From: Mycobacterium sp. ITM-2016-00318
Lineage (GTDB): Bacteria; Actinomycetota; Actinomycetes; Mycobacteriales; Mycobacteriaceae
Assembly: GCF_002968285.2 (NCBI RefSeq)
Contig: NZ_CP134400.1
Location: 1,116,001 to 1,180,000 of the forward strand
DNA: 64,000 bases
Reading direction: 5' to 3'
Below the pieces are notes generated by a model. The model saw only the letters and a program-made list of their open reading frames with translations, was not told the origin of the DNA and ran no database searches. A program made the translations under genes and the position numbers. Shown in pieces: positions 45,606 through 60,310 of this stretch (positions are counted from its first letter, which is position 1; the number at the start of each line of letters is the position of its first letter).

Positions 45606-46250
45606 CTACACCCTGCCCGCGACGAAGTCCGCTGCCGTGTTGACGAATCCGCCGGTGTAGCTGGGCGACCTGTGCGCGGCGACACTCTCGCCGTCGGTCT
45701 GGCAGATCGGATCATTGCCGTTGCAGAGGTCGATGGACCGTCCGCCCCACACCGGGCTCATCGTGAGCGGCAGCCCGAGCTTGGCCGACGGATTCCCGAA
45801 GACAGCGATTGCGGCGACGAAGTCGGGTGCGTTGGGCGGCAGCGGGTTGGTGAATCCGATTACCGGGATAGGCACAGCGGCAATCACATCCATCACCGCG
45901 GCGCCCTGCGAATAACCGCCGAGCACCAATCGGGTGTTCGGGCAGGCGCCCATCATGTACTGGATATGCGCGCTGGCGTCGTTGGCTCCGACTGCGGCAG
46001 CGAGGAAGTCGTAGTCGGCGGGATAGTTGACGGCATAGGCACCGACGGACCTGCCACCTACCTTGCCCTTGAGCGAGTCGACGAAATTACCTCCGACGGC
46101 TCCGAGCCCGGCGGTGTCATCGGTCCCGCGGGCGAACACGACCTCGATGTCGGGGCAGTCAGCCGAAGCGACCGGCGAGAACGCGATCGACGGCGTGATG
46201 GCCGCTGCGGCGCCGATCAATAAGGCAGCTGTTGTCTCAACTACGCGCAT
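45606..46250 (-). CDS. Secreted cutinase-family esterase (Culp)
   Basis: This 214-residue protein has a signal peptide (TAALLIGAAAAITPSIAFSP). The core has [40 protein letters not shown] (nucleophile Ser), Asp in NDPICQT and His in AAHRSPSY. All Culp disulfide cysteines are present. It is the middle gene of three, starting 5 bases after the upstream cutinase and 52 bases before the next. Confidence 0.93.
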   Translation of the reverse strand: MRVVETTAALLIGAAAAITPSIAFSPVASADCPDIEVVFARGTDDTAGLGAVGGNFVDSLKGKVGGRSVGAYAVNYPADYDFLAAAVGANDASAHIQYMMGACPNTRLVLGGYSQGAAVMDVIAAVPIPVIGFTNPLPPNAPDFVAAIAVFGNPSAKLGLPLTMSPVWGGRSIDLCNGNDPICQTDGESVAAHRSPSYTGGFVNTAADFVAGRV

Positions 46251-46255
46251 TCTCT

Positions 46256-46936
46256 CTATATCCTTCCGGCGGCGAAGCTGGCTGCTTGTTGAGCCATCGC
46301 ATCCTCGTAACCCCTGTGAGCGAGCGGGTTTCGCCCATCAGAACAAATAGGGTCACCGTCCTTGCACAGGTCGATGGACCGACCGGCGAATTGTCCCACC
46401 GATGACAGTGGTTGTCCGAACTTCGTCGCAGGATTCCCGAAGACGGTCACGGCGGCCACCGTGATCGCGGCGACCGGGGACAAGGGCGGCGCCGATCCCA
46501 CACTGCCGATCTTGTTGCCGAGCGGGGGAACGCCGGCCAGCATGTCCACCACGGCGGCGCCCTGCGAGTACCCGCCGAGCACGATCTTGGTCGACGGGCA
46601 CGACAGCGCCATCGACGAGATGTGGTTGGTGGCGTCGGTCGCGCCGTCGGCAGTGGTGAGGAAGTCGTAGTCGGCGGGGTAGTTCACCGCGTAGGAGCTG
46701 ACGGTGCGCGGCGCCAGCTGTGCGGTCAGCGCGTTGGTGACTGCCTGGCCCACCCGGCCGACGCCCGAGGGCTCGGCGGTGCCACGCGCGAAAACGACCT
46801 CGACATCGGGGCACGGCACTGCCACTGCGCTCGGTGCGGTAGCGAGAAGGCCTGCGGCCGCGGATCCAACAATTGCCAGGACGGCGGCCCCACGGGCCGA
46901 GCTATGTGCCAGAGTCACGCCGTCATGTTTCCACAC
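46256..46936 (-). CDS. Secreted cutinase-family esterase (Culp)
   Basis: This 226-residue protein has an Ala-rich signal segment (GAAVLAIVGSAAAGLLATAP). The core has PCPDVEVVFARGTAEPSGVG, CPSTKIVLGGYSQGAAVVDM with the nucleophile Ser, DGDPICSD and the histidine in LAHRGY. The start is ATG 46936 or GTG 46918. It is the first gene of the cutinase operon and is similar in layout to the Cut3/Cut4 genes that neighbour truA and ESX-4 in M. tuberculosis. Confidence 0.93.
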   Translation of the reverse strand: MWKHDGVTLAHSSARGAAVLAIVGSAAAGLLATAPSAVAVPCPDVEVVFARGTAEPSGVGRVGQAVTNALTAQLAPRTVSSYAVNYPADYDFLTTADGATDATNHISSMALSCPSTKIVLGGYSQGAAVVDMLAGVPPLGNKIGSVGSAPPLSPVAAITVAAVTVFGNPATKFGQPLSSVGQFAGRSIDLCKDGDPICSDGRNPLAHRGYEDAMAQQAASFAAGRI

Positions 46937-48606: not shown

Positions 48607-51600
48607 CTACTGCTCTTTACCGCCGAGGTCCGTCGGCCGGAGCTGAAGCAGATTGCTCGCTTCGGGCTTGGCCACTGCGATGCCGGGCGGCTGCCCTTGG
48701 CCGGCCTCCCACCAGCGCGACGTTGCGGGCGGGGCGCCGCGCCGTGGGTCTTGCCCGGCCGGCGACACCGTCGGTGTCGGCGTGTTCCCAGCCCCCCCGC
48801 GGAACAACGAGCGTGCCGCGCCCGGTGTCGTCGGGCTGGGGATCGCGGAACGGGCTTTGGCGCCGAACGCCGAACCGCTGGAGGCAAACCGGGATTCAGC
48901 GTCTTCCCGGCCGGTGGTATGTGGTTTGTTGAGCGCGTCCTCAAGCCTGCTGATGGATTTGAAATCGGTGATGGTGCCGTAGTCATCAAGTGGTGGTAAC
49001 TCGACCCTGTTGTCGGTTTTCGGCCCGAACGACGACGACGACGAGCCAGACCCCGACGAGTCAGACGACTCTGCCGACTGTGAGGCCGACGACTGCGAGT
49101 CGGATGCTTGGGCCTCGGAGGCGCCCGAGTCGGGTGAGCCGGTCGCCGATGACGAGGCCGTCGGTTGTGCTGTTGCGGGCTGGGCACCGGACGAGTGGCC
49201 GGGCGCCTGCGCCATCCCGGTGCCGGACGCAGCGCCGACAGCCTGCTCGAGGTACTGACGCCACGCCTGCAGATGGCTGAACAGCTGTTGCGCATAGTCC
49301 GTCGGCGGGTTCAGTGCACCACCGCCACCCGACCCGGGCATGCCCGGCGGCATGGGCGGTATCGGTGGAATGCCGCCGGGCATGGGGGGCATCGGTGGCA
49401 TGCCTGATGTGCCCGGCGGGAAGAGCAAGGCGGGCGTGACGGATGCCGACGCCTCCAGAAGTTGTCGCCAGGCCTGCAGATAGGCGAGCAGGTGCTGGTT
49501 GGAGTCAACGGGAAATGTCATCGGTGGGCCTCCGTCGGGTGGGGTTGATGAGTTGTAGTCCGCGTCGATGTTGCGCAAAGTGCGAGTGTCGATCGGCTCC
49601 CGGTTCTCCAGGTCCATGACATAGCAGTAGTCCCCGGCGGGGGAAGGCATTCGGACCGGGGTCGTCAGACCCTGGTCGATGAAGCCGTATGGAGTGCGCC
49701 AGTGGAGCGCCGTCTGGCCCCGGCGATCGACACCATCGGACTCGACCCAGATGTAGTGATCGAGGATGGCGTTGACCGCGTGGCGGCCCGATTCGCACGC
49801 CGCCTCCATCGATGTCATACGAGTGAACGTCTTGGTCCATGTGCCAGCGAACACCACCGAATTGTTGTGCACCTGAAAGCCGCCGTGGCGGGCCTGCCAA
49901 ACGTCGCGCTGCTCTAGGTCTGCCAGCCAGTCTTCATCGGTCGGCACCGTGCCGAAAGAATTGCCGGTCGGGTTCCACGGGTCGGTACAGGGCCGGTTGT
50001 CCCAGTCGCCGACGATCGGGATCAGATACGGCGTTTCGTTTCGCACCGGGCGACCGACGCCTTGACCGGGACCGCCTTCCATGATGATGCCGCGGTCGAT
50101 CGCATACCACGCCGGCCACGGCAACAAAGCCTCGGCGACGTTGGCGGCGCTGCTGGTGAGTGCTTTGACGATCTGACGCCACACCTCCGCCGCGATCTCG
50201 TCGGCCGTGCAGTCGCGGGCGGCCTTGCCGTTTCCGTTGGCGTCCTTGAGGTGATTGGACGCAGAGTTGAAATCGCCGATGTCGACCGAGAGGACCGAGA
50301 TGTGGCCGTCGCGATCCAGGATCGGCTTTCTCTCCCATAGTCCGTGCTGGTTTATCGACGACAACGCCCACTCCGTCCCGGAGTAGTACATGTGCCCTCG
50401 CAACAACTGGAACTCGGTGTCGAAGTAGAACTGGATGCCGCCGAGCGTCTGGAATCGGTCCCAGGGCTTCTTGCCCATGGCGTCGATGTCGTACGGGTCC
50501 CGGCGGTCCAGCGGACGGGTCGCCGAGGGCTGCAACGGGTCGTTGGGCGGGGGCACGAGGGTAGTGAAACCGTCCAGCCGCGCCACACTCCCTCCGGTGC
50601 CCGCCGCCCGCAGCTTCGCGGTGATGCGTTCGGCCGCAGGGGCATCAACCGCTACCACCGTGTAGTCAGGCGTCAGCCGGGTGCCGTCGGTCAGTGTCAC
50701 CTGCACCCTCGGCCTGTGATGCGGCGGCAGGTTCACATCGGTATGCGGAGGATCCAGACTGGCAGCCTCGCCTCGGACGAATCGGACCCCCAGTTCGAGG
50801 AGGTGGCGGTACCAGTGGTCGAACCACGATTCGGTGGTGGGACCGTTGAGTACGCCGTCGGCCTTGGTGTCGCGGCGGTCCATCTGAAGCTGGAGTTGAA
50901 GGTAGGTGGAGACGTTGGTGCGGGCGTCCCCGTAGCGCGTGTCGAACGCTGCGAGCACCCGCGGCATTTCCAGAAGCGTCGCGTCGAAGCGTTGCGAGTA
51001 ACTGAATCGGGGGGGTGCTTTCGGCGCGGCGCGTCCGACGAAGAAGTCGTACGCCGAGAGGTTCTGCAGCTGTGATGCCCGGCGCTGGGGACTCGTGACC
51101 AGGTACTCCATCAGCCTGCTCACGAACGTCCCGACGTCCTGGGCGGTGAAACCCAATTGGGTGAGTTGATATGCAGTGGTCAGGAATTCGGCTGCCGAGC
51201 GGGGTGCTTCGCGCGGAAACACAAGCGACGGTTTGCCTTCTACCGTGGTGCCCTGAGTGACCACTCGCCTCACGTTGTCCATGATCGTGCGCGAGGTCGG
51301 GATCCAGCGCACGTCGCCGTGGCCCAGCTCCAACCGCTCGTACACCGGAATTCGTTGGAACAGGTCCCAGATGTGGATGTAGTAGGCGGGAAAGAAGCGG
51401 AAGCCGTGCTCACCGGCGACCGCCCGTTTCGGCTCACGCGGCTTACCACGCCGGCCCGGGAACGGTCGTAGCTCGGCGAGGCTGCCGGTGTACGGGCCGG
51501 TCGTCGAGTACTGAGAGGCGGCGAGTCCGCCGAGTTTGATGGGTGGGTACGTGCCCGCCGGAGTGTCTTCCAGGCCGCAGCGCTCGTCGGCGCGGTTTTC

Positions 51601-51729
51601 GTACACGGTCACGTCGAAGCCGCGTTCTGCCAATTCGTGGGCGGCGCTCAGTCCGGCGATCCCGCCGCCGAGGACTGCGACCGTACGGCGTCGCTTGCAG
51701 GACGCCGGGGTTGAGATGGCTTCGGTCAT
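48607..51729 (-). CDS. Phytoene-desaturase-like flavoprotein with long disordered tail
   Basis: Residues 1-~700 of this 1040-residue protein are a flavin amine oxidase/carotenoid desaturase-type enzyme. Seen are VAVLGGGIAGLSAAHELAER for FAD, GEHGFRFFPAYYIHIWDLFQ, a signature shared with phytoene and zeta-carotene desaturase-like proteins, and SMEAACESGRHAVNAIL near the end. Residues ~740-1040 are Pro/Gly/Met then Ser/Ala/Gln-rich and probably disordered. They contain two related helices, NQHLLAYLQAWRQLLE (744-759) and AQQLFSHLQAWRQYLE (813-828). It is the last gene of a seven-gene coupled operon with a prenyl synthase. Desaturation or dehydrogenation of a terpenoid is likely, and the tail may tether it to partners. 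Confidence 0.82.
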   Translation of the reverse strand: MTEAISTPASCKRRRTVAVLGGGIAGLSAAHELAERGFDVTVYENRADERCGLEDTPAGTYPPIKLGGLAASQYSTTGPYTGSLAELRPFPGRRGKPREPKRAVAGEHGFRFFPAYYIHIWDLFQRIPVYERLELGHGDVRWIPTSRTIMDNVRRVVTQGTTVEGKPSLVFPREAPRSAAEFLTTAYQLTQLGFTAQDVGTFVSRLMEYLVTSPQRRASQLQNLSAYDFFVGRAAPKAPPRFSYSQRFDATLLEMPRVLAAFDTRYGDARTNVSTYLQLQLQMDRRDTKADGVLNGPTTESWFDHWYRHLLELGVRFVRGEAASLDPPHTDVNLPPHHRPRVQVTLTDGTRLTPDYTVVAVDAPAAERITAKLRAAGTGGSVARLDGFTTLVPPPNDPLQPSATRPLDRRDPYDIDAMGKKPWDRFQTLGGIQFYFDTEFQLLRGHMYYSGTEWALSSINQHGLWERKPILDRDGHISVLSVDIGDFNSASNHLKDANGNGKAARDCTADEIAAEVWRQIVKALTSSAANVAEALLPWPAWYAIDRGIIMEGGPGQGVGRPVRNETPYLIPIVGDWDNRPCTDPWNPTGNSFGTVPTDEDWLADLEQRDVWQARHGGFQVHNNSVVFAGTWTKTFTRMTSMEAACESGRHAVNAILDHYIWVESDGVDRRGQTALHWRTPYGFIDQGLTTPVRMPSPAGDYCYVMDLENREPIDTRTLRNIDADYNSSTPPDGGPPMTFPVDSNQHLLAYLQAWRQLLEASASVTPALLFPPGTSGMPPMPPMPGGIPPIPPMPPGMPGSGGGGALNPPTDYAQQLFSHLQAWRQYLEQAVGAASGTGMAQAPGHSSGAQPATAQPTASSSATGSPDSGASEAQASDSQSSASQSAESSDSSGSGSSSSSFGPKTDNRVELPPLDDYGTITDFKSISRLEDALNKPHTTGREDAESRFASSGSAFGAKARSAIPSPTTPGAARSLFRGGAGNTPTPTVSPAGQDPRRGAPPATSRWWEAGQGQPPGIAVAKPEASNLLQLRPTDLGGKEQ

Positions 51730-52130
51730 GATCGCCCCGCCCGTAGCTCGGCCAGCAGTGCGGGCTGCGAAGGCGCCCGGACCGCGGCGTGCACGTACGA
51801 CAGCAGAGTGTCGTGGGCGCGCTGCACGTCGTCGAGTGAGCCACGTACGGCAACGGTGCCGGCTTCCACCGCATGGCCCAGCCCGACCACCGCGTCGACC
51901 ACGTCGAGGATTGCGTTGCGGGAGGTAGAAATGCGGGTGCCTGCCGTATCCACGGTGCCGTCGACCACCTCGAGCCGGTGGCCCCCTCGCAAGGAAAACA
52001 GCTCGCCGTCGACATCGAGTTCCACCACCAGCGGCCCGAGCTCGTGGAGCACGAGGCGATAGCTTTCCGGCACCTCGCGCGCCAGGTGCTCGACAGACTG
52101 CCGCAGCAGCGATGAAACGCGTTCAGCCAT
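51726..52130 (-). CDS. SCP2-like small protein
   Basis: The 134-residue product has LHELGPLVVELDVDGELFSL and GTRISTSRNAILDVVDAVVG and GTVAVRGSLDDVQRAHDTLL. These pieces fit a sterol-carrier-protein-2-like lipid-binding fold: a beta sheet with a hydrophobic pocket, then an ADD-type helix. The call is by pattern only. ATG at 52130 overlaps the CrtC-like gene by 8 bases, and its own stop overlaps the flavoprotein start (ATGA). It may hold a hydrophobic intermediate for the pathway. Confidence 0.55.
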   Translation of the reverse strand: MAERVSSLLRQSVEHLAREVPESYRLVLHELGPLVVELDVDGELFSLRGGHRLEVVDGTVDTAGTRISTSRNAILDVVDAVVGLGHAVEAGTVAVRGSLDDVQRAHDTLLSYVHAAVRAPSQPALLAELRAGRS

Positions 52131-53145
52131 AGAGAAACTCGAATACTCCGGAGCCGACGAAGTCGATGCGCTCGCCGTTGACCGACCCGTCGACCGTTGC
52201 GGTGCCGGTGGTTTCACAGAGCACGGTCGAGCGCTTCAAGCTCACCTCGCTCGGTTGAGCTAGGCGCGCATAGGAATGCGACCGGAACTCGGTGTGCACC
52301 GCGTCGCCCGCCCTGGTCGCGTCAATCTCCACTTGTCGTGGAACGTCTGACACCTCGCCGTCCAGCAGGAGTCTCATCGGGGCAGGGAGCGTGCAGTCCG
52401 CGGGGCGACCGAGCAAGCCGTGAGATCGCATCGTCACTGCGGCGTGCCGGAATATCGCGGCCGGCTCGTCGCGATGCCACACGTACAGAGCCTGCGAGAG
52501 GCACCGCAACCGGCGTCGGTCCGTCATTCGCAGAAAGACCAGCGACCAAGGATTTTTGAGCTCGTGGGACAGCATCGTGCCCCACGTCCAGCCGAAGTCG
52601 CCACCCCAGCGGAACCGGCCCCAGTTGTGGTCGTGATAGGCGGTCTCGTTGTCGATGCGACACTCCTGGTCCCCGATGCGCAACCACCCGTCTGCGCGTA
52701 ACTTCGGCACGAAGAGCCAGCACATTCTGCCGTCGCCGAGTGCCTGATTGTTGACGACGAACGGCCGACTGATCGACGTGAAGTGGACTACCCCGTGAAT
52801 GCCTTGTCCCGGAAGGTCGATCACAACCTCATACCCCTCCGGATGCACGACCATTCGATTGCCGCCGATCGTGAGGATGCCCAGGTCGGCCGACACGTCG
52901 AGTTCTGATTCATCGAATCGTTCGATTGCTCCGGACCACTGCTCCTCGTGGTCGATCACGATGACGCGCGGCGCCAGTCGGTGTCGGCCTTTGCCAGTGG
53001 GCTCGCTGGTGAGGCTGAAGTTGATCAAGAGCCGCCGACCCGCGCCGTGGATCACGAAGTGGTACCACTCCTTGAAACCGTCGGGCAGCGCGGTGTTCAG
53101 GACCGGCGTGCGCAGAAAATCACTGCTGGCGAGCATCGCGGTCAT
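52123..53145 (-). CDS. CrtC/AttH-like hydratase-fold protein
   Basis: This 340-residue protein matches carotenoid 1,2-hydratase (CrtC)-type lipocalin-pair proteins. The hallmark is ETAYHDHNWGRFRWGGDFGW, with further beta-rich stretches (GYEVVIDLPGQGIHGVVHFT). CrtC adds water to a terminal isoprenoid double bond, and other relatives are cyclases or isomerases. ATG at 53145 is chosen because it overlaps the upstream stop (ATGA). GTG at 53154 is an alternative. The neighbouring prenyl synthase supports a terpenoid substrate. Confidence 0.72.
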   Translation of the reverse strand: MTAMLASSDFLRTPVLNTALPDGFKEWYHFVIHGAGRRLLINFSLTSEPTGKGRHRLAPRVIVIDHEEQWSGAIERFDESELDVSADLGILTIGGNRMVVHPEGYEVVIDLPGQGIHGVVHFTSISRPFVVNNQALGDGRMCWLFVPKLRADGWLRIGDQECRIDNETAYHDHNWGRFRWGGDFGWTWGTMLSHELKNPWSLVFLRMTDRRRLRCLSQALYVWHRDEPAAIFRHAAVTMRSHGLLGRPADCTLPAPMRLLLDGEVSDVPRQVEIDATRAGDAVHTEFRSHSYARLAQPSEVSLKRSTVLCETTGTATVDGSVNGERIDFVGSGVFEFLYG

Positions 53146-53417
53146 CTCAGCCACCTGGTGGCGGTCGAGTCAGACTCGATCGCGGCGGCCGAAGAATCCC
53201 GCGGCGGAGCCGTTTCGGCCAGCCGCTCGATGGAGTCGCCGAGGCTGGCGAGGCCGAGCAGCAGATGGACGAAGTCGTCGTCGCAGACCGTGTCGATTCG
53301 CCGGTCGGCGTCGGCGGCCATCGCGCGCACGACCCGGCCGAGACTCGCCAGCCCCAACAGGTAATCGATGAACGTGCTCTGTTCTGCGAGCGCCTCGCGC
53401 GGATCAGTGAGCGTCAT
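53142..53417 (-). CDS. 91-residue protein with an internal repeat
   Basis: I do not recognise a family. The protein consists of two similar helical units, FIDYLLGLASLGRVVRAMA (about 18-36) and FVHLLLGLASLGDSIERLA (about 51-69), joined by an acidic linker, plus a Ser/Asp-rich tail. The shared LLGLASLG box is very hydrophobic on one face, suggesting membrane, lipid or protein-docking contact. It overlaps both neighbours by ATGA, indicating coupled synthesis with the pathway enzymes. Confidence 0.7.
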   Translation of the reverse strand: MTLTDPREALAEQSTFIDYLLGLASLGRVVRAMAADADRRIDTVCDDDFVHLLLGLASLGDSIERLAETAPPRDSSAAAIESDSTATRWLR

Positions 53418-53872
53418 GCGAAGCCCTCCGGGCGGAGGCGGGCGAGAATGGAGTCGTCGAGTCCGTGGCCGATCACAGCGTCGGCCAGCAACTCGGCCCA
53501 CGCGCTCGGCGCTGAATTGGGTGCGGCGGGACCGTCAAGAACGTTCAGGCTCAACGTTTCCCACACGCGGCGAAGGTTTTCGACGGCTGCGGACGTGATC
53601 AGCGCGTCGCGCAGTTGTGCGCCTGTGGGAGTGTCGGCATAGCGGCGACCTTCCGCGACAAGCATGTCGTGCAGGCTCCTGGCGGCTGCCGGATTACCGA
53701 GCACGGCGCGGCGGGCGCCGATGAGCAGATCGAATACCGATCGTTCCGGGCCGGTGGACTCGTCGGGCGGAGGTGGAAGTAGTCGGGGCGCGTTGCGCTC
53801 CACGAGGTCGAGGGTGAGTTCGCGGATCCGTTCCAGTTCCGCAAGCATGCCGATGAGGACTTCGGGAGTCAT
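53414..53872 (-). CDS. Helical protein of unknown function
   Basis: This 152-residue, mostly alpha-helical protein (MTPEVLIGMLAELERIREL, LIGARRAVLGNPAAARSLHD, VENLRRVWETLSLNVLDG) has a Pro-rich linker (LLPPPPDESTG) after the first helix. No catalytic motif is seen. It overlaps the prenyl synthase stop and the next start by four bases each. An accessory or scaffold role is possible. Confidence 0.68.
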   Translation of the reverse strand: MTPEVLIGMLAELERIRELTLDLVERNAPRLLPPPPDESTGPERSVFDLLIGARRAVLGNPAAARSLHDMLVAEGRRYADTPTGAQLRDALITSAAVENLRRVWETLSLNVLDGPAAPNSAPSAWAELLADAVIGHGLDDSILARLRPEGFA

Positions 53873-55068
53873 CGTGTGCGCTCATGTACGTATTCGACGA
53901 GAGCGTTGAGCACGTCCCGATGCCTGCTGCCCGGCAACCAGTCGAGGCCGGCGAGGACGCCGGCCGCGTCTCGGGTGTGTCCGGCGGCCACCTGCTTTGC
54001 GTGCTTGAACGACCCGAGACGCTGCATCAGCCCATAGAGCCAACGGATGTCGTCGAGACTCTTCGAATCCGCCGCGCGCAGTCCCTGCAGATGCGAGGCG
54101 ATCTCTTCCAGACCGGCCCGGGACAAATCTCCATGATCGAAGAGGCGTGACAGTAGGTCGTCCAGCTTGAGTTCGTCGTCGGCACTCGGGCGGCGCTTGG
54201 CCAGGATCTGCACGGCCCGACGCTGATCGTCGGGGGCGGCATTCCGCATGGCGTGCAACAACATCAGGGTCCGCTTGCCCTCCCACAGGTCGCCGCCGAT
54301 CTCCTTGCCGTAGTCCTCCGGATCAGCCCGCAGGTTCAGCAGATCGTCGGTGATCTGGAAGGCCGCGCCGAGATGTCGGCCGAGCGCTTCCAGCGGCTTC
54401 AACTGCTCGGGTCCCGCGCCGGCGGCGACCGCACCCACCTGCAGGGGCGTGATGAACGAGTACCAGCTTGTCTTGAGCTCCACCATCTGTAGATAGTCGG
54501 CGTCGGTGAGCTCCCAGGTGTTGTTGCGCACCCAGTCGAGCTCGAGAGCCTGGCCCTCGACGGTCCGCCGGGTCATGTGGGCGACGGCCCGCAGGATGCG
54601 AAGCGCCGGTCCGAGACCGACGCGTTCGACGTTGTCGAGGAGCGGCTGAAGGGACAGCGAAAGCATGGCATCACCGACGTTCACCGCGATCGGGATGCCA
54701 TGGTCGATGTGCAGCGTGGGCTTGCCTCGCCGCGTCCACGATTCGTCCTCGATGTCGTCGTGAATGAGAAATGCGTTGTGGTAAAGCTCGAGGGTGGCCG
54801 CGGTCGGCAGGACAGCTTCGAGGTGACCGCCGAGCCCTAGACAGGTCGCGATGCTGAGCGCGGGTCGCAGGGCCTTGCCACCGCGAAGCGGGTATTCGAG
54901 GATCAGGTCATAAAGGCCGTTCGGCCCGTGCCGGCTGGGGCCATAGAGCCGGCTGATCTCGCCGTCGCAGGCTTCCTTGCATAAGGCCAGGTAATTGTCG
55001 AGCGCGTTCAAGACCTTAGGAACAGGTGTCGCGTCAGGGGACCACGACGGCAACAAGGCCACTGACAT
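53869..55068 (-). CDS. Polyprenyl (GGPP-type) diphosphate synthase
   Basis: This 399-residue trans-prenyltransferase has RGGKALRPALSIATCLGLGG, the first Asp-rich motif FLIHDDIEDES, GQALELDW, MVELKTSWY and a second motif ITDDLLNLRAD. In the second motif the last Asp of DDxxD is Asn, as in many GGPP synthases. It should condense IPP with an allylic diphosphate to a C20-type chain. ATG at 55068 lies inside the end of the shell-like gene (35-base overlap), so expression is tightly linked. No phytoene synthase or terpene cyclase is obvious in the operon. Confidence 0.92.
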   Translation of the reverse strand: MSVALLPSWSPDATPVPKVLNALDNYLALCKEACDGEISRLYGPSRHGPNGLYDLILEYPLRGGKALRPALSIATCLGLGGHLEAVLPTAATLELYHNAFLIHDDIEDESWTRRGKPTLHIDHGIPIAVNVGDAMLSLSLQPLLDNVERVGLGPALRILRAVAHMTRRTVEGQALELDWVRNNTWELTDADYLQMVELKTSWYSFITPLQVGAVAAGAGPEQLKPLEALGRHLGAAFQITDDLLNLRADPEDYGKEIGGDLWEGKRTLMLLHAMRNAAPDDQRRAVQILAKRRPSADDELKLDDLLSRLFDHGDLSRAGLEEIASHLQGLRAADSKSLDDIRWLYGLMQRLGSFKHAKQVAAGHTRDAAGVLAGLDWLPGSRHRDVLNALVEYVHERTR

Positions 55069-55849
55069 CCTTGATCCTTAGGGCGTAACGAATGCGGACA
55101 GCCCACTCGATCAAGCCGGTCCCATTGTCGCCGACACATTCGAGGCTGGGCGGGATGCTGACTGCCAGATCCGCGGGTTCCTCACCGGGCGACGCATCCG
55201 CCGCTCGTCCGTCCGCGATTAGTTGACGTCGTCCGAGCAAGAGGAGCCGCGCATTCGCGCCCCCACCCGACTGATCAAGTTTCCTAAAGCGCCGGAACGA
55301 GTTGATGTTCGGCACAGGCGAGAGATATTCGGTTGCGGGAACGCCGTCTATCAACGAGCTGAGTATCTTGAATGCCAACCTGTCCGCGAACAGACAGCAT
55401 GGTGCCAGGTACCCGGCATCCTCCACAACCATCCGGGCGTCGATGAGCCCAGCGAGGACGTTCTCCGCACTCTTGGTCTTGACGAACCCGGGTACGGGGA
55501 CCTTGGCGGTGAGCTTGTCCACAACATCATCATCAACAGCTTGCGCTAAGTGCTCCGTCCGTGCGATTACGGCGGCGAGGAGCGCATCAGGGGACGGTGC
55601 CATTGCTTGAGCCAAGCTCATCGCGAATCGCACGACCTGGCCTGTGATAGCGACCATTTCCACACCGAGCGGCGGCTCGACGTTGGGCGGGGCCACAGCT
55701 GTCGCATTCGTCAGGTCGGTGCGGACGTAGGTTTGGCCAGGATCGGCGGTGTCCCAGCGTGGGATCGACTGCCAGGCGATAGAGGTCTGCTCGAATGTCT
55801 CTCGAACCTGCTCGTTGGCAAGCGCTAGCCGCTCGGCACTCAGGTACAT
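55034..55849 (-). CDS. Possible HK97-fold (encapsulin-like) shell protein
   Basis: This 271-residue protein has the length of an encapsulin protomer. An N-terminal helical arm (LSAERLALANEQVRETFEQT) is followed by an extended E-loop-like stretch. Next comes a helix with HLAQAVDDDVV resembling the encapsulin LALAEDRAVF box. The end, DLAVSIPPSLECVGDNGTGL then EWAVRIRYALRIKDVSGLVA, has the strand pattern that closes HK97-fold capsids. No phage genes are nearby. GAGGGGG precedes ATG 55849, and the frame upstream lacks a site. It opens the terpenoid operon. The fold is inferred by eye and is not proven. An alternative is an uncharacterised enzyme. Confidence 0.5.
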   Translation of the reverse strand: MYLSAERLALANEQVRETFEQTSIAWQSIPRWDTADPGQTYVRTDLTNATAVAPPNVEPPLGVEMVAITGQVVRFAMSLAQAMAPSPDALLAAVIARTEHLAQAVDDDVVDKLTAKVPVPGFVKTKSAENVLAGLIDARMVVEDAGYLAPCCLFADRLAFKILSSLIDGVPATEYLSPVPNINSFRRFRKLDQSGGGANARLLLLGRRQLIADGRAADASPGEEPADLAVSIPPSLECVGDNGTGLIEWAVRIRYALRIKDVSGLVAVVVP

Positions 55850-55957: not shown

Positions 55958-58900
55958 CTATTTCTGCAAAAGGGCGACTTCCTGGCCGGGGGACATCTCC
56001 CCGCGCGTCATGGCGTCGCAGTGCGCCAGATGCAGTGAGGCGACGGGGTCGTCCGGCAGCAAGTGTTGGCACCGCTCGAACGCCGCGCGCGCGCCGTCGA
56101 CATCACCGGCGTCGAACAGCGCAAAAGCCTCGTCAAACGCGGGTTGAGCCGATCGCTTGGCAGCTCGTAGCTCGTCGGGGTCGTCGGCATAGACCTCATA
56201 GATGGTCACCGGATGGCGCCGGTTGACCACCATGACCCGCTCCATTCGGCGGATGTCGAACTCGTCGGGGTTCGGGAGCCCTCGATAGGTCTTGTCCGAG
56301 ATGAGCAGACCCGAGCCGTAGCGCTTGTTGGTGCTCTCGATGCGGGCGGCCAGGTTGACGGCATCGCCAATGATCGTGAGCACCATGCGGTTCACGCCGC
56401 CGACGAGCCCAATGCCCAAGGCGCCGGTGTTGAGCCCGATTCCTGCGTGGAGCTCATCGGAACCGTGTGCCAGCCTGTCGTGATTGTGCTCCCGAAGCGA
56501 GCGCAGCATCCCAAGACCTGCCCGCACGGCATCCGCCTCCGACTCGAAAACGGCAACGATCTCGTCCCCTCGGACATCCTGGATCATTCCGTTCGAGCTG
56601 ACGATCGGAACCTCGACGGCTCGCAGAAAGCCCATGGCGAGATCGCTCGCTTCCGAGACGTCCATGTCCTCGAGCATTGTCGTGTATCCGCGAATGTCGC
56701 TGATCATCACAGTCATTCGGCGTTCGACGCGATAGCCGCTACGCACCCGGCGCAGATCGTCGATATCGAGGATCCGCAGGAGCTCGTTGGGGACGAACTT
56801 CGACTGCACATCGATGAGCGATCGTCGATACTCGTCGGCTGCCCTCAACTGGGCCTCGAGTTGAAGGTTCCACAGCGGCGCAGCGGCCTGCGCGCACAAA
56901 AATGCGACGGCCTCTTCGTGGGCGGCCGTGAACCGCTTTCGCGGTTCGTGGTGCTCGGCGTATATCACGCCGATGGTCTTGTCCTGTACCCGAACTGGAA
57001 CGACGAGCGTCGACTGGGCCTGCCGGTCATGCCCCACGCGCCCGTACAGTGCACCGCCCACACCGACGGTGTCGGCTGCAACGATGACCGGGGCACCGCT
57101 ATCGACCACTCGTCTGACGAGCTCCCGGTCGTACGGCACGTTCGGCCACGGCCCCTCGATCGTCGTGGTCTTGCCGTTCTCGTAGAGGGCCCGGACCGTC
57201 AGCTGTTCATCCTCGCCGGTCAGTCCGATCACGCGGCTCGCGCCGGTCGTGTCCGCGACCGAGCCGAGCACGATGTTGGCCAGGCTTTCTGGTGTCCGTG
57301 CCGCCGATAACGTGCGGAATACCTGATGTGCTTGGGCCGGGTCGAATGCGGCACCCTCGGGCACAAGATCACGGCTGATCAGCCAGGGGTATTCGCGCGC
57401 AAGCCGATCCGTTCGCAGGGTCATACCCTGGCGCAGGAATTGGGTGTATGCCAGACGGAGCATGTGCTCGTGAAGTTGTGGGCGCCCCGTCTTGGCGTAC
57501 AGCTCGGCGGCTTCTTCGTGGGCGGCCGCCGAGATCAACGGCAGGCGATGCTCTTCGGCGAGCGCAATCGCGCGGTGGAGATGACGCTCGGACTGACCGT
57601 GACGCCCGCGCGCGCTCGCCCACGCTCCCTGAATCAGCGCGTAGGGGGCTGCATAATTGGCCGGCGAGTCCGCCGCCCAAGCACGATGCTTTCGGAGCGC
57701 GCGAGCCACAGAGGCCTTCGTATTGCGGTCCTTCGGCGCGGCACGAATCCTGCTCAGGGATTCGGTGAGATAGATGATCTGCATGAAAGCGGTGCCCGCC
57801 ATGCCGTCGATGTGCTCGATGGCTTCGTCTGCCGCGCCCTCGAGGGCACCCGCAAAATCGCCCGACCAGTAGTAGAGCCCCAGTCGTTGGGTGGCGATCG
57901 CGCTCAGCGTCACCTCGTCGCCCTCGGCAAGCGCCGCCGGGAGCGCTTCTCGTTCGTCATAGCCGCTCTCGCCCGCGACGAGATATGGGTCCTCGCTGCG
58001 GCCCATCATGTTGAAGCCGAACTGCTGGATCGCCGAACAAATTTTTCGCGGGTTCGGCTGCGAGCGGATCTGGGGGACAAGCGACCGTGCGAGCACATCG
58101 ATCTCCCCGAGTGGGCGCCCCGCCCAGAACGACTGGCCCAACAGGGTGGCCGTGAGCCACCCGGCATACTCCTGATCGCCTTGGTCGAGCGCCTCGGTGA
58201 TCGCATCCCGCAGCGGGCCAAGGCTTTCGCGAATCGGGTGGCGCCAATGATCGATGAAGTCGAAGTACAGAAACAGTGTGTGCGGGCGGACTTCTTTGAA
58301 CTCCGGGCGCTCGACGAGCTGCATCGCCACGTCGCCAAAGCGTTGCGCGCCATCGCGGTCACCGGCGAGCACCAACACCAGTCCGTAGCTGGCGAGCACG
58401 ACCGGAAGGCTCGGCGTATGGCCGTGCGCCAAGGTCAGGTCGAGCTGTTTGCGAACGATCAACGGGAGCAGGTTCGGCCGTCCGATGTAGGACAGGCTGT
58501 GCATCTCGGCGAGGATGCGCAGAAGCTGTATGACTCGAGGGTCGTCGCAGTCGGGAAGCGCCAGCAGCCGCTCGTTGCTCCAGCGGCTCATCTTCATCTT
58601 CATCCGGACCAGTTCCACGCCCAGCCGAGGAGTCCCTGGATGATGCGGCAACGGTTCACCGAATTCGTCGAGCGCGTGCAGCCCGATGTCGATCGCATCC
58701 TGGATGCGGTTCTCGCCGACTCGTCCCTTCAACCGCAGATAGGCCAGACGAACCCGGTCGACCGGCTCGCTGAGGAACTCCTCCGCCTCGTCGAGCAATT
58801 CGTGCAATGCGGTGACGTCGCCGACCAGCACGGCGGCTTCGGCGGCGCCGAGTTGCAGTTCGCGCGCCAGCGCGAAGTCGGCATCCCAGCGACGACCCCC

Positions 58901-60310
58901 CAGCAGCCGCAGCCCGGTGCGCGAGTACTCGAGGGCCAGCGGAAAGGACGCTTGAGCACGCGCCTTGCCCGCCGCGCGGTGGAGCAGCTGGACGAACCGG
59001 ATGCGCTCCGCATCGTCGGCCAGACCCGTGCCGCCCGCACTGATGTGGCGTGCGGCCTCGAACAAGCGGCTGTCGCCGAGCTGGACAAGGCGTCGCGCGA
59101 TCCGACGATGTACCTCGCGCTTGGCGTCGTCGGACAGGTCGGCGCGCGCAGCCTCGGCCACTCGGTCGTGACTGAACCGGTAGCGGGCGTCGCGGCTGAT
59201 CGCGTTGGTGATGCGACGGCCGTTGCCGTCGACTGCTTCGACGAGCCGGAACTCCAATCCCGCCCACAGCGCCTGAGCCACGACGGCGGTCGGCAGGGCC
59301 GCGGCTGCCGCTGCGTCGTCGAGGTCGAACTCCCGGCCGATGCACGCCAGCGAGGCGAGCGCCTGACGGTCGACGGGACGCAACTGGTCAAGATATCGAC
59401 CGAGGAACTCGGCGGCGGTGGCGGTGACCTCAATGGAGGAAAGGATCCGCAGATCCCAGCTCGAGTGGCCGTCTGCCTCCGAGGGCAGCAGCGCGCCTTC
59501 TCGCTGTGCGCGGTAAAGCAGCTGACGGATCTGCAACGGATTGCCGCCGGTCCGGTGCTGGAATTCGGTCGTCACGTCGCCGAGTTCGACAGTTCGACCG
59601 CAGATGGTCGCCAGCATCTCCTGAACATCGTCGTGGCTGAGCGCGGTGAGTTCGATGCTGCGGAGGCTCGTGGAGTCAAGACCCGCTGCGGTGGCGTCGA
59701 ACTCACCGGCGCGGTGAGCACCGAGCACAAGTACGTTTCGGGGCGACACCGACAGCAGTTCCGCCAGGAGCAGCAGGGTGTCGCGATCGGCCCACTGCAG
59801 GTCGTCGATCGCCAGCACCACGGTCCGGTACGACGCGGTATCGGAGATCAACCTGATGGCCGCCCTATGCAGTCGGCGGCGTGCGTCGGCGGCGTCGAGG
59901 TCCGTCAGTTGTGAACCGTCGCCGAACAGCTCGGTCAGTTCAGGGACGAGCTGACCGAGGACCGCGGAAAGCGCAGATGTTCCGCTCAGCAGGTCGGAGC
60001 GCCAGCTGTCCCGTTCGGAAGGACCGGTGGACTCCATCGCGTGGACGATCGCCCGAAGCGCCTCAGCCAGTGCCGCGTATGGCGCGGATGCGCCTTCTCC
60101 GCAGCGGCCATAGGCGAATACGCAATTGCGTCCGGTGATCTCGAAGCCGAAAGCCTGGGTGAGCGTCGACTTGCCGACGCCGGGTGGGCCGCTCAGCAGG
60201 ACGCAACCTCCGCCGGCGCGGCCCACTTCGTCAACGGCATCGCGGAGTTGGGTCATCTCGCGACGCCGGCCGAACATGCGGCCGTCGAGGTCGAGCAGCG
60301 AGGACGTCAT
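55958..60310 (-). CDS. AAA ATPase-TPR-GAF-class III nucleotide cyclase protein
   Basis: This 1450-residue regulatory protein has a STAND/AAA module with Walker A GPPGVGKST (41-49) and Walker B TVVLAIDDLQWAD. A ~600-residue helical TPR-like region, a GAF-like domain (about 1010-1150) and a class III cyclase domain follow (MISDIRGYTTMLED with D1205; VRGDEIVAVF with D1249; TIIGDAVNLAARIES). Both metal Asp are present, but the purine-selecting Lys is Asp (D1245), so the nucleotide specificity or activity is uncertain. Similar AAA-cyclase fusions occur in M. tuberculosis. It lies 108 bases upstream of the terpenoid operon on the same strand and may sense its signal. Confidence 0.85.
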   Translation of the reverse strand: MTSSLLDLDGRMFGRRREMTQLRDAVDEVGRAGGGCVLLSGPPGVGKSTLTQAFGFEITGRNCVFAYGRCGEGASAPYAALAEALRAIVHAMESTGPSERDSWRSDLLSGTSALSAVLGQLVPELTELFGDGSQLTDLDAADARRRLHRAAIRLISDTASYRTVVLAIDDLQWADRDTLLLLAELLSVSPRNVLVLGAHRAGEFDATAAGLDSTSLRSIELTALSHDDVQEMLATICGRTVELGDVTTEFQHRTGGNPLQIRQLLYRAQREGALLPSEADGHSSWDLRILSSIEVTATAAEFLGRYLDQLRPVDRQALASLACIGREFDLDDAAAAAALPTAVVAQALWAGLEFRLVEAVDGNGRRITNAISRDARYRFSHDRVAEAARADLSDDAKREVHRRIARRLVQLGDSRLFEAARHISAGGTGLADDAERIRFVQLLHRAAGKARAQASFPLALEYSRTGLRLLGGRRWDADFALARELQLGAAEAAVLVGDVTALHELLDEAEEFLSEPVDRVRLAYLRLKGRVGENRIQDAIDIGLHALDEFGEPLPHHPGTPRLGVELVRMKMKMSRWSNERLLALPDCDDPRVIQLLRILAEMHSLSYIGRPNLLPLIVRKQLDLTLAHGHTPSLPVVLASYGLVLVLAGDRDGAQRFGDVAMQLVERPEFKEVRPHTLFLYFDFIDHWRHPIRESLGPLRDAITEALDQGDQEYAGWLTATLLGQSFWAGRPLGEIDVLARSLVPQIRSQPNPRKICSAIQQFGFNMMGRSEDPYLVAGESGYDEREALPAALAEGDEVTLSAIATQRLGLYYWSGDFAGALEGAADEAIEHIDGMAGTAFMQIIYLTESLSRIRAAPKDRNTKASVARALRKHRAWAADSPANYAAPYALIQGAWASARGRHGQSERHLHRAIALAEEHRLPLISAAAHEEAAELYAKTGRPQLHEHMLRLAYTQFLRQGMTLRTDRLAREYPWLISRDLVPEGAAFDPAQAHQVFRTLSAARTPESLANIVLGSVADTTGASRVIGLTGEDEQLTVRALYENGKTTTIEGPWPNVPYDRELVRRVVDSGAPVIVAADTVGVGGALYGRVGHDRQAQSTLVVPVRVQDKTIGVIYAEHHEPRKRFTAAHEEAVAFLCAQAAAPLWNLQLEAQLRAADEYRRSLIDVQSKFVPNELLRILDIDDLRRVRSGYRVERRMTVMISDIRGYTTMLEDMDVSEASDLAMGFLRAVEVPIVSSNGMIQDVRGDEIVAVFESEADAVRAGLGMLRSLREHNHDRLAHGSDELHAGIGLNTGALGIGLVGGVNRMVLTIIGDAVNLAARIESTNKRYGSGLLISDKTYRGLPNPDEFDIRRMERVMVVNRRHPVTIYEVYADDPDELRAAKRSAQPAFDEAFALFDAGDVDGARAAFERCQHLLPDDPVASLHLAHCDAMTRGEMSPGQEVALLQK

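Follow-up and report, generated by a model that had tools for sequence, protein, structure and literature searches.

A conserved mycobacterial gene cluster that may encode an undescribed protein compartment making a lipid-like compound

Why does a gene for a capsid-like protein share an operon with isoprenoid enzymes? The question is raised by a 64,000-nucleotide stretch of the genome of Mycobacterium sp. ITM-2016-00318 (contig NZ_CP134400.1, positions 1,116,001 to 1,180,000; hereafter the window), a genome consisting of a single 5.46 Mb contig. Seven open reading frames (ORFs), P1 to P7, all on the − strand, span positions 48607-55849 of the window. A preliminary description had taken them for an operon linking a possible HK97-type shell protein to terpenoid enzymes; the seven − strand ORFs are indeed there and their order recurs in relatives. 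The cluster may encode an undescribed protein compartment making a lipid-like compound. More specifically, structure models and gene content make it reasonably probable that it encodes a previously unclassified encapsulin-type nanocompartment, in which P1 would form the shell, the flavoprotein P7 would be recruited through its tail, and the product would be a modified isoprenoid.

The encapsulin-like protein P1 (55034..55849, − strand) comprises 271 amino acids. Its predicted model has the HK97 fold, as had been suspected, and among the structure matches listed it lies nearest to encapsulins, with phage capsids ranking next below them. Residues 1 to 269 align with closed-shell encapsulins (245 residues, 3.1 Å, 9-17% identity). 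The best structural matches include Myxococcus xanthus EncA and the T. maritima encapsulin, which we take to be Family 1 members; they share with P1 the full-length HK97 fold, an N-terminal helix and a size of about 270 amino acids. In the P1 model the elongated N-terminal helix occupies residues 5-22, with a predicted local distance difference test (pLDDT) score of 88-97 for the block. Such a helix replacing the N-arm distinguishes Family 1 according to PMC8346489. The HK97 fold fills the whole length of P1, without a cNMP-binding domain, so the model does not correspond to the truncated, A-domain-only protein of Family 4.

Sequence searches with P1 returned no Pfam domain match, no match in the PDB (phmmer and profile search), one weak unnamed family in PHROGs and, at the sensitivity used, no relative in phage and viral collections. 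Over 71 P1 relatives the best E-values were 0.015 for PF04454 and 0.038 for NF041155, each in one member, while the window's P1 matched neither. No Family 2 shell model occurs among the 23 NCBIfam families matched by these relatives, and PF05065 (Family 3) and PF08967 (Family 4) are both absent from the 9 Pfam families matched. The 50 structure matches listed for P1 likewise hold no Family 2 shell, which does not exclude such shells. The P1 family comprises at least 507 protein clusters (E ≤ 0.001, among 7998 candidates scored); among the 120 matches listed, names are 'hypothetical protein' or missing, with the exception of one UniRef name starting 'General secretion pa'. Twenty alignment columns are invariant across the 71 sequences.

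The association of P1 with its neighbors was followed in loci found on genome contigs through two peptide patterns from the 71-row P1 alignment, a route by which more distant relatives may be missed; a scan with the single P1 protein gave no match on these contigs. The 37 loci belong mostly to Mycobacterium and Mycolicibacterium, with additional ones from Pseudonocardia eucalypti (L037) and from Pseudonocardiales (L021) and Acidimicrobiales (L046) metagenome-assembled genomes; L047 breaks off within P1, and L021 within P3. P2 and P3 adjoin P1 in all 36 loci reaching that far (all except L047), which is the linkage of shell gene and prenyl synthase that the preliminary description had asked to see. 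P5, P6, and P7 are present in 35/35 loci of sufficient length, and P4 in 34 of these 35. A 1450-residue AAA/GAF/cyclase gene (55958..60310, − strand) precedes P1 in 35 of the 37 loci and stands inverted downstream of it in L037. As the loci had been picked by P1, the reverse direction was checked with P5 in 401 genomes of the family: P1 is clear in 9, and the same 9 carry P5 at E ≤ 3.8e-180. A tenth P1 match (G081: E 3.8e-4, 76 residues, internal stop) was excluded, and of the 43 genomes matched by P5, 34 were weak (E 1.5e-9 or worse) and were counted as holding distant superfamily members. Class and phylum searches gave clear matches in 6/394 and 6/396, from the same genus only and with the own genome counted; three further partial matches (E 3.0e-4 to 5.5e-4) were regarded as chance. 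ORFs of the window other than P1 to P7 and the cyclase gene recur in at most 7 of the 37 loci, some of the loci being short; the unit is thus preserved in differing surroundings. The conserved unit is therefore the seven genes together with the cyclase gene, eight in all; the preliminary description was right about the seven, but its boundaries omit the eighth.

The ratio of nonsynonymous to synonymous substitution rates (dN/dS), estimated in seven pairs, ranges over 0.16-0.47 for P1 and 0.08-0.19 for P2, while P6 exceeds P1 in 3/7 pairs. Judged by these ratios, P1 is under purifying selection. With gene content and order recurring in related loci and with P1 at 0.16-0.47, chance is an unreasonable explanation for the arrangement.

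The enzymes of the operon are of isoprenoid type. P2 (53869..55068, − strand, 399 amino acids) matches PF00348, the polyprenyl synthetase family, at E 5.8e-62 (209.6 bits, cut-off 27), and its best PDB match is the geranylgeranyl diphosphate (GGPP) synthetase 1wmw (E 2.6e-54); it is an all-trans polyprenyl diphosphate synthase, in line with the GGPP-type enzyme first proposed. Against NF041169, the model of Family 2B prenyl-transferase cargo, it scores 183.9 bits, under the curated cut-off of 450 bits. P5 (52123..53154, − strand, 343 amino acids) had been described as a CrtC-like hydratase. Its predicted model has the AttH/kievitone-hydratase/CghA fold of 2ich and relatives (hydratase, lyase, or cyclase type), a fold group to which CrtC and tocopherol cyclase belong, but identity to the group is 9-13% and Pfam matches are weak only. 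P6 (51726..52130, − strand, 134 amino acids) is probably an SCP2-like lipid-carrier protein: among 18 relatives SCP2 is matched in 9 (best E 0.0045) and Alkyl_sulf_C in 10, all weakly, whereas the window's own copy has no family match, so SCP2 is reached weakly and through relatives only. The P7 ORF (48607-51729, − strand) encodes a flavoprotein fused to a tail. Its catalytic part (residues 1-735; 49525..51729) is an FAD-dependent oxidoreductase of desaturase/amine-oxidase type (PF01593, E 3.6e-10; PF13450 too), with 597 relatives at E ≤ 1e-10; the best NCBIfam match is HpnE (36.8 bits, cut-off 283). No terpene cyclase is found in the operon by Pfam and NCBIfam families, as had been noted; the accompanying remark on phytoene synthase needs the addition that one gene of the phytoene/squalene-synthase family lies elsewhere in the host genome.

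How enzymes might be brought to the shell is suggested by the P7 tail, here also called the P8 module (48607..49524, − strand). Its low-complexity character agrees with the disordered tail described earlier for a desaturase-like P7, but the tail is often an ORF of its own: of 35 loci with P7, 19 have a separate tail ORF beside a P7 of about 740-756 amino acids and 14 have the fused form seen in the window; P7 is fragmented in L045 and cut off in L046. A typical tail contains two copies of a (D)Y(T/N)QQL(L/F)xYLQAWRQxLEQ type sequence, separated by a Pro/Met-rich linker and followed by a low-complexity remainder. In the window the two helices, predicted from sequence, are NQHLLAYLQAWRQLLEA (49450..49500, − strand) and DYAQQLFSHLQAWRQYLEQ (49243..49299, − strand). 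Residues 846-1040 of P7 consist to 66% of P, G, S, A, T, and Q, with 14% order-promoting residues, and the charge-hydropathy rule places this remainder just barely on the disordered side. Motifs were counted in the window and all 33 intact loci (n = 34). The search pattern detects two helix copies in 26 tails; six of the remaining eight show a degenerate first copy, and in L036 this part is masked. The motif (K/R)SL(F/Y), represented in the window by RSLF (48802..48813, − strand), occurs in 23/34 tails (0.15/34 in shuffles), an FxGLxxR-type end in 6/34 (0.06/34 in shuffles), and both in one. As the motifs were picked after inspection and the tails are related, these counts are a pointer and not a test.

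The two small proteins also have conspicuous C-terminal ends. P3 (53414..53872, − strand, 152 amino acids) ends in LRPEGFA, and RP(E/D)GF(A/V/T) closes all 35 copies over 130 amino acids, one with an extra G. P4 (53142..53417, − strand, 91 amino acids) carries R(W/F)LR after a variable linker in 33 of 35 copies, a candidate shell-binding or adaptor peptide. Such an arrangement, a variable linker with a short conserved end, is reminiscent of encapsulin cargo peptides. The tail/P8 and the P4 end hold candidate cargo-loading motifs.

From these features we infer a scheme of assembly, loading, order of reactions, product, and regulation. P1 might self-assemble into an icosahedral shell, into or onto which P7 would be brought by its tail or by a separate P8, perhaps aided by the conserved ends of P3 and P4. 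P2 would make an all-trans prenyl diphosphate, which P7 could desaturate or oxidize and which P5 could hydrate, eliminate, or cyclize, with the SCP2-like P6 carrying the greasy intermediate. The AAA/GAF/cyclase protein would regulate the system, and the end product would be some modified isoprenoid. The protein-shell-organized isoprenoid pathway of the preliminary description is thus supported by fold and linkage, as an interpretation.

Several observations weigh against a nanocompartment of this kind. The dN/dS of P1 is above that of P2 in 7/7 pairs, i.e., the shell protein evolves more rapidly than the adjoining prenyl synthase. A long variable extension at the N-terminus is not seen in P2, whose relatives begin to align within residues 1 to 21. 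The L037 tail has a single helix, neither tail motif is present in 6/34 tails, so that no single loading motif is universal, and the P4 end is missing in 2/35 copies. Family matches leave the chemistry of P5 and P7 unfixed, and L046, the most distant locus, yielded neither P4 nor the cyclase gene. Profile comparison of P1 by hhalign was not significant with 20 Family 1 sequences (P 0.039) or with 5 Family 2B shells (P 0.071); three unrelated alignments from the operon, taken as controls, gave 0.098, 0.30, and 0.41, and the power is limited by a low effective number of sequences (Neff 2.7 for P1 and 1.7 for Family 1).

The faster evolution of P1 would suit an HK97-fold protein that, once domesticated, lost the ability to close shells and now acts as a scaffold, flat or a small oligomer, for membrane-associated isoprenoid enzymes held by the tail helices. 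Fold similarity is silent on assembly, and isoprenoid substrates generally tend towards membranes; still, the alignment with closed-shell encapsulins over residues 1 to 269, the purifying selection, and the 20 invariant columns argue against such a scaffold, which seems unlikely. More doubtful yet is a P1 shell with some other cargo (e.g., only P3 or P4), the isoprenoid enzymes working outside on membrane lipids. It would explain why the most constant C-terminal ends are those of P3 (35/35) and P4 (33/35) and why P2 and P5 show no obvious targeting peptide at their ends in ten loci, but the P7 tail/P8 looks like a recruitment module and the linkage of the enzymes is complete wherever visible. 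A remnant prophage capsid gene lying by chance in an isoprenoid operon would account for the HK97 fold and for phage capsids scoring next after encapsulins. It was rejected as extremely improbable: the same metabolic genes adjoin P1 across loci (P2 and P3 in 36/36), no phage or viral relative was detected at the sensitivity used, and P1 shows purifying selection.

The encapsulin-type nanocompartment, as the preferred reading, may be compared with known systems. From Family 1, P1 differs by 9-17% identity, the lack of a profile match (PF04454, hhalign), and an isoprenoid-type operon; no DyP or ferritin-like family is found among the assigned operon genes, P3 and P4 having no assigned family. 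For mycobacteria, the pathogen section of PMC8346489 names peroxidase operons of Family 1. In theme, Family 2B comes closest: its encapsulins have, according to PMC8346489, polyprenyl-transferase or terpene-cyclase cargo, the former with a disordered N-terminus of 50-100 residues; the preliminary description had pointed to terpene-related cargo in other encapsulin families. In both systems an operon combines a shell of HK97 fold with prenyl-diphosphate chemistry, both have disordered ends on (candidate) cargo, and both show a cyclic-nucleotide theme, in Family 2B as a cNMP domain fused to the shell and here as a separate cyclase gene. Shell, prenyl synthase subfamily, site of disorder, and partner enzymes differ: P1 has neither a cNMP-binding domain nor a Family 2 profile match, the low-complexity region lies on P7/P8 rather than P2, and the operon has no terpene cyclase. 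Searches for a Family 2B shell in the host genome gave 7/7 partial matches (positions 67-206 of 450), all below cut-off. Family 3 (PF05065, peptide natural-product clusters) was set apart by gene content, without direct sequence comparison, as no nonribosomal peptide synthetase, polyketide synthase, or sulfotransferase occurs among the seven operon genes. No literature title or abstract opening searched describes this gene set, a scope that does not extend to the supplementary sequence lists of PMC8346489.

P1 possibly represents a new encapsulin family. The fuller proposal, a fifth family derived from an independently domesticated HK97 capsid protein and forming an isoprenoid-processing organelle in actinobacteria, loaded by a dedicated scaffold P8, which some species fuse to the desaturase, rather than solely through peptides carried by the individual enzymes, and controlled by its own nucleotide cyclase, is given slightly less than an even chance. 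In Family 2B, HK97 shells are already coupled to terpenoid enzymes. Were P1 to define a second such shell family, one that could not be aligned with Family 2B here and that differs in its prenyl synthase and its other enzymes, this would suggest repeated enclosure of isoprenoid chemistry by bacteria. Moreover, a shell, a possible scaffold, enzymes, and a cyclase in one eight-gene unit would make the step from capsid to organelle testable.

The regulator gene encodes an AAA ATPase, a GAF domain, and a class III nucleotide-cyclase-like domain. In a cyclase alignment of 46 rows (some genomes twice), two metal-binding Asp residues and an Asn/Arg pair are conserved in 44-46 rows, and Asp replaces the Lys of classical cyclases in 45/46. 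The replacement points to a possible unusual nucleotide specificity of the putative cyclase. The gene seems broken in two loci: in L028 (Mycolicibacterium chubuense type strain) it is apparently interrupted (a 1026-residue open piece, two match pieces) with the rest of the unit present, and L045 (Mycobacterium lepraemurium) also carries the cluster, with P1, P5, P7, and the cyclase gene matching in pieces only, consistent with genome decay. Coordinates leave 108 bases between the cyclase gene and P1 (55850..55957), a candidate promoter region. For P4 and P6 the later starts at ATG 53417 (91 amino acids) and ATG 52130 (134 amino acids) are favored by conservation in relatives; with them all neighboring pairs overlap, by 4 to 35 bases (P1/P2 35, P2/P3 4, P3/P4 4, P4/P5 13, P5/P6 8, and P6/P7 4).

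The host genome also contains a classical encapsulin gene (PF04454; G000:C1:4710160-4710911). It is split between two reading frames and contains a stop, which may reflect a broken gene or a sequencing error. Within the window, positions 45606-46936 hold two adjacent − strand ORFs with a resemblance to cutinase-type secreted esterases.

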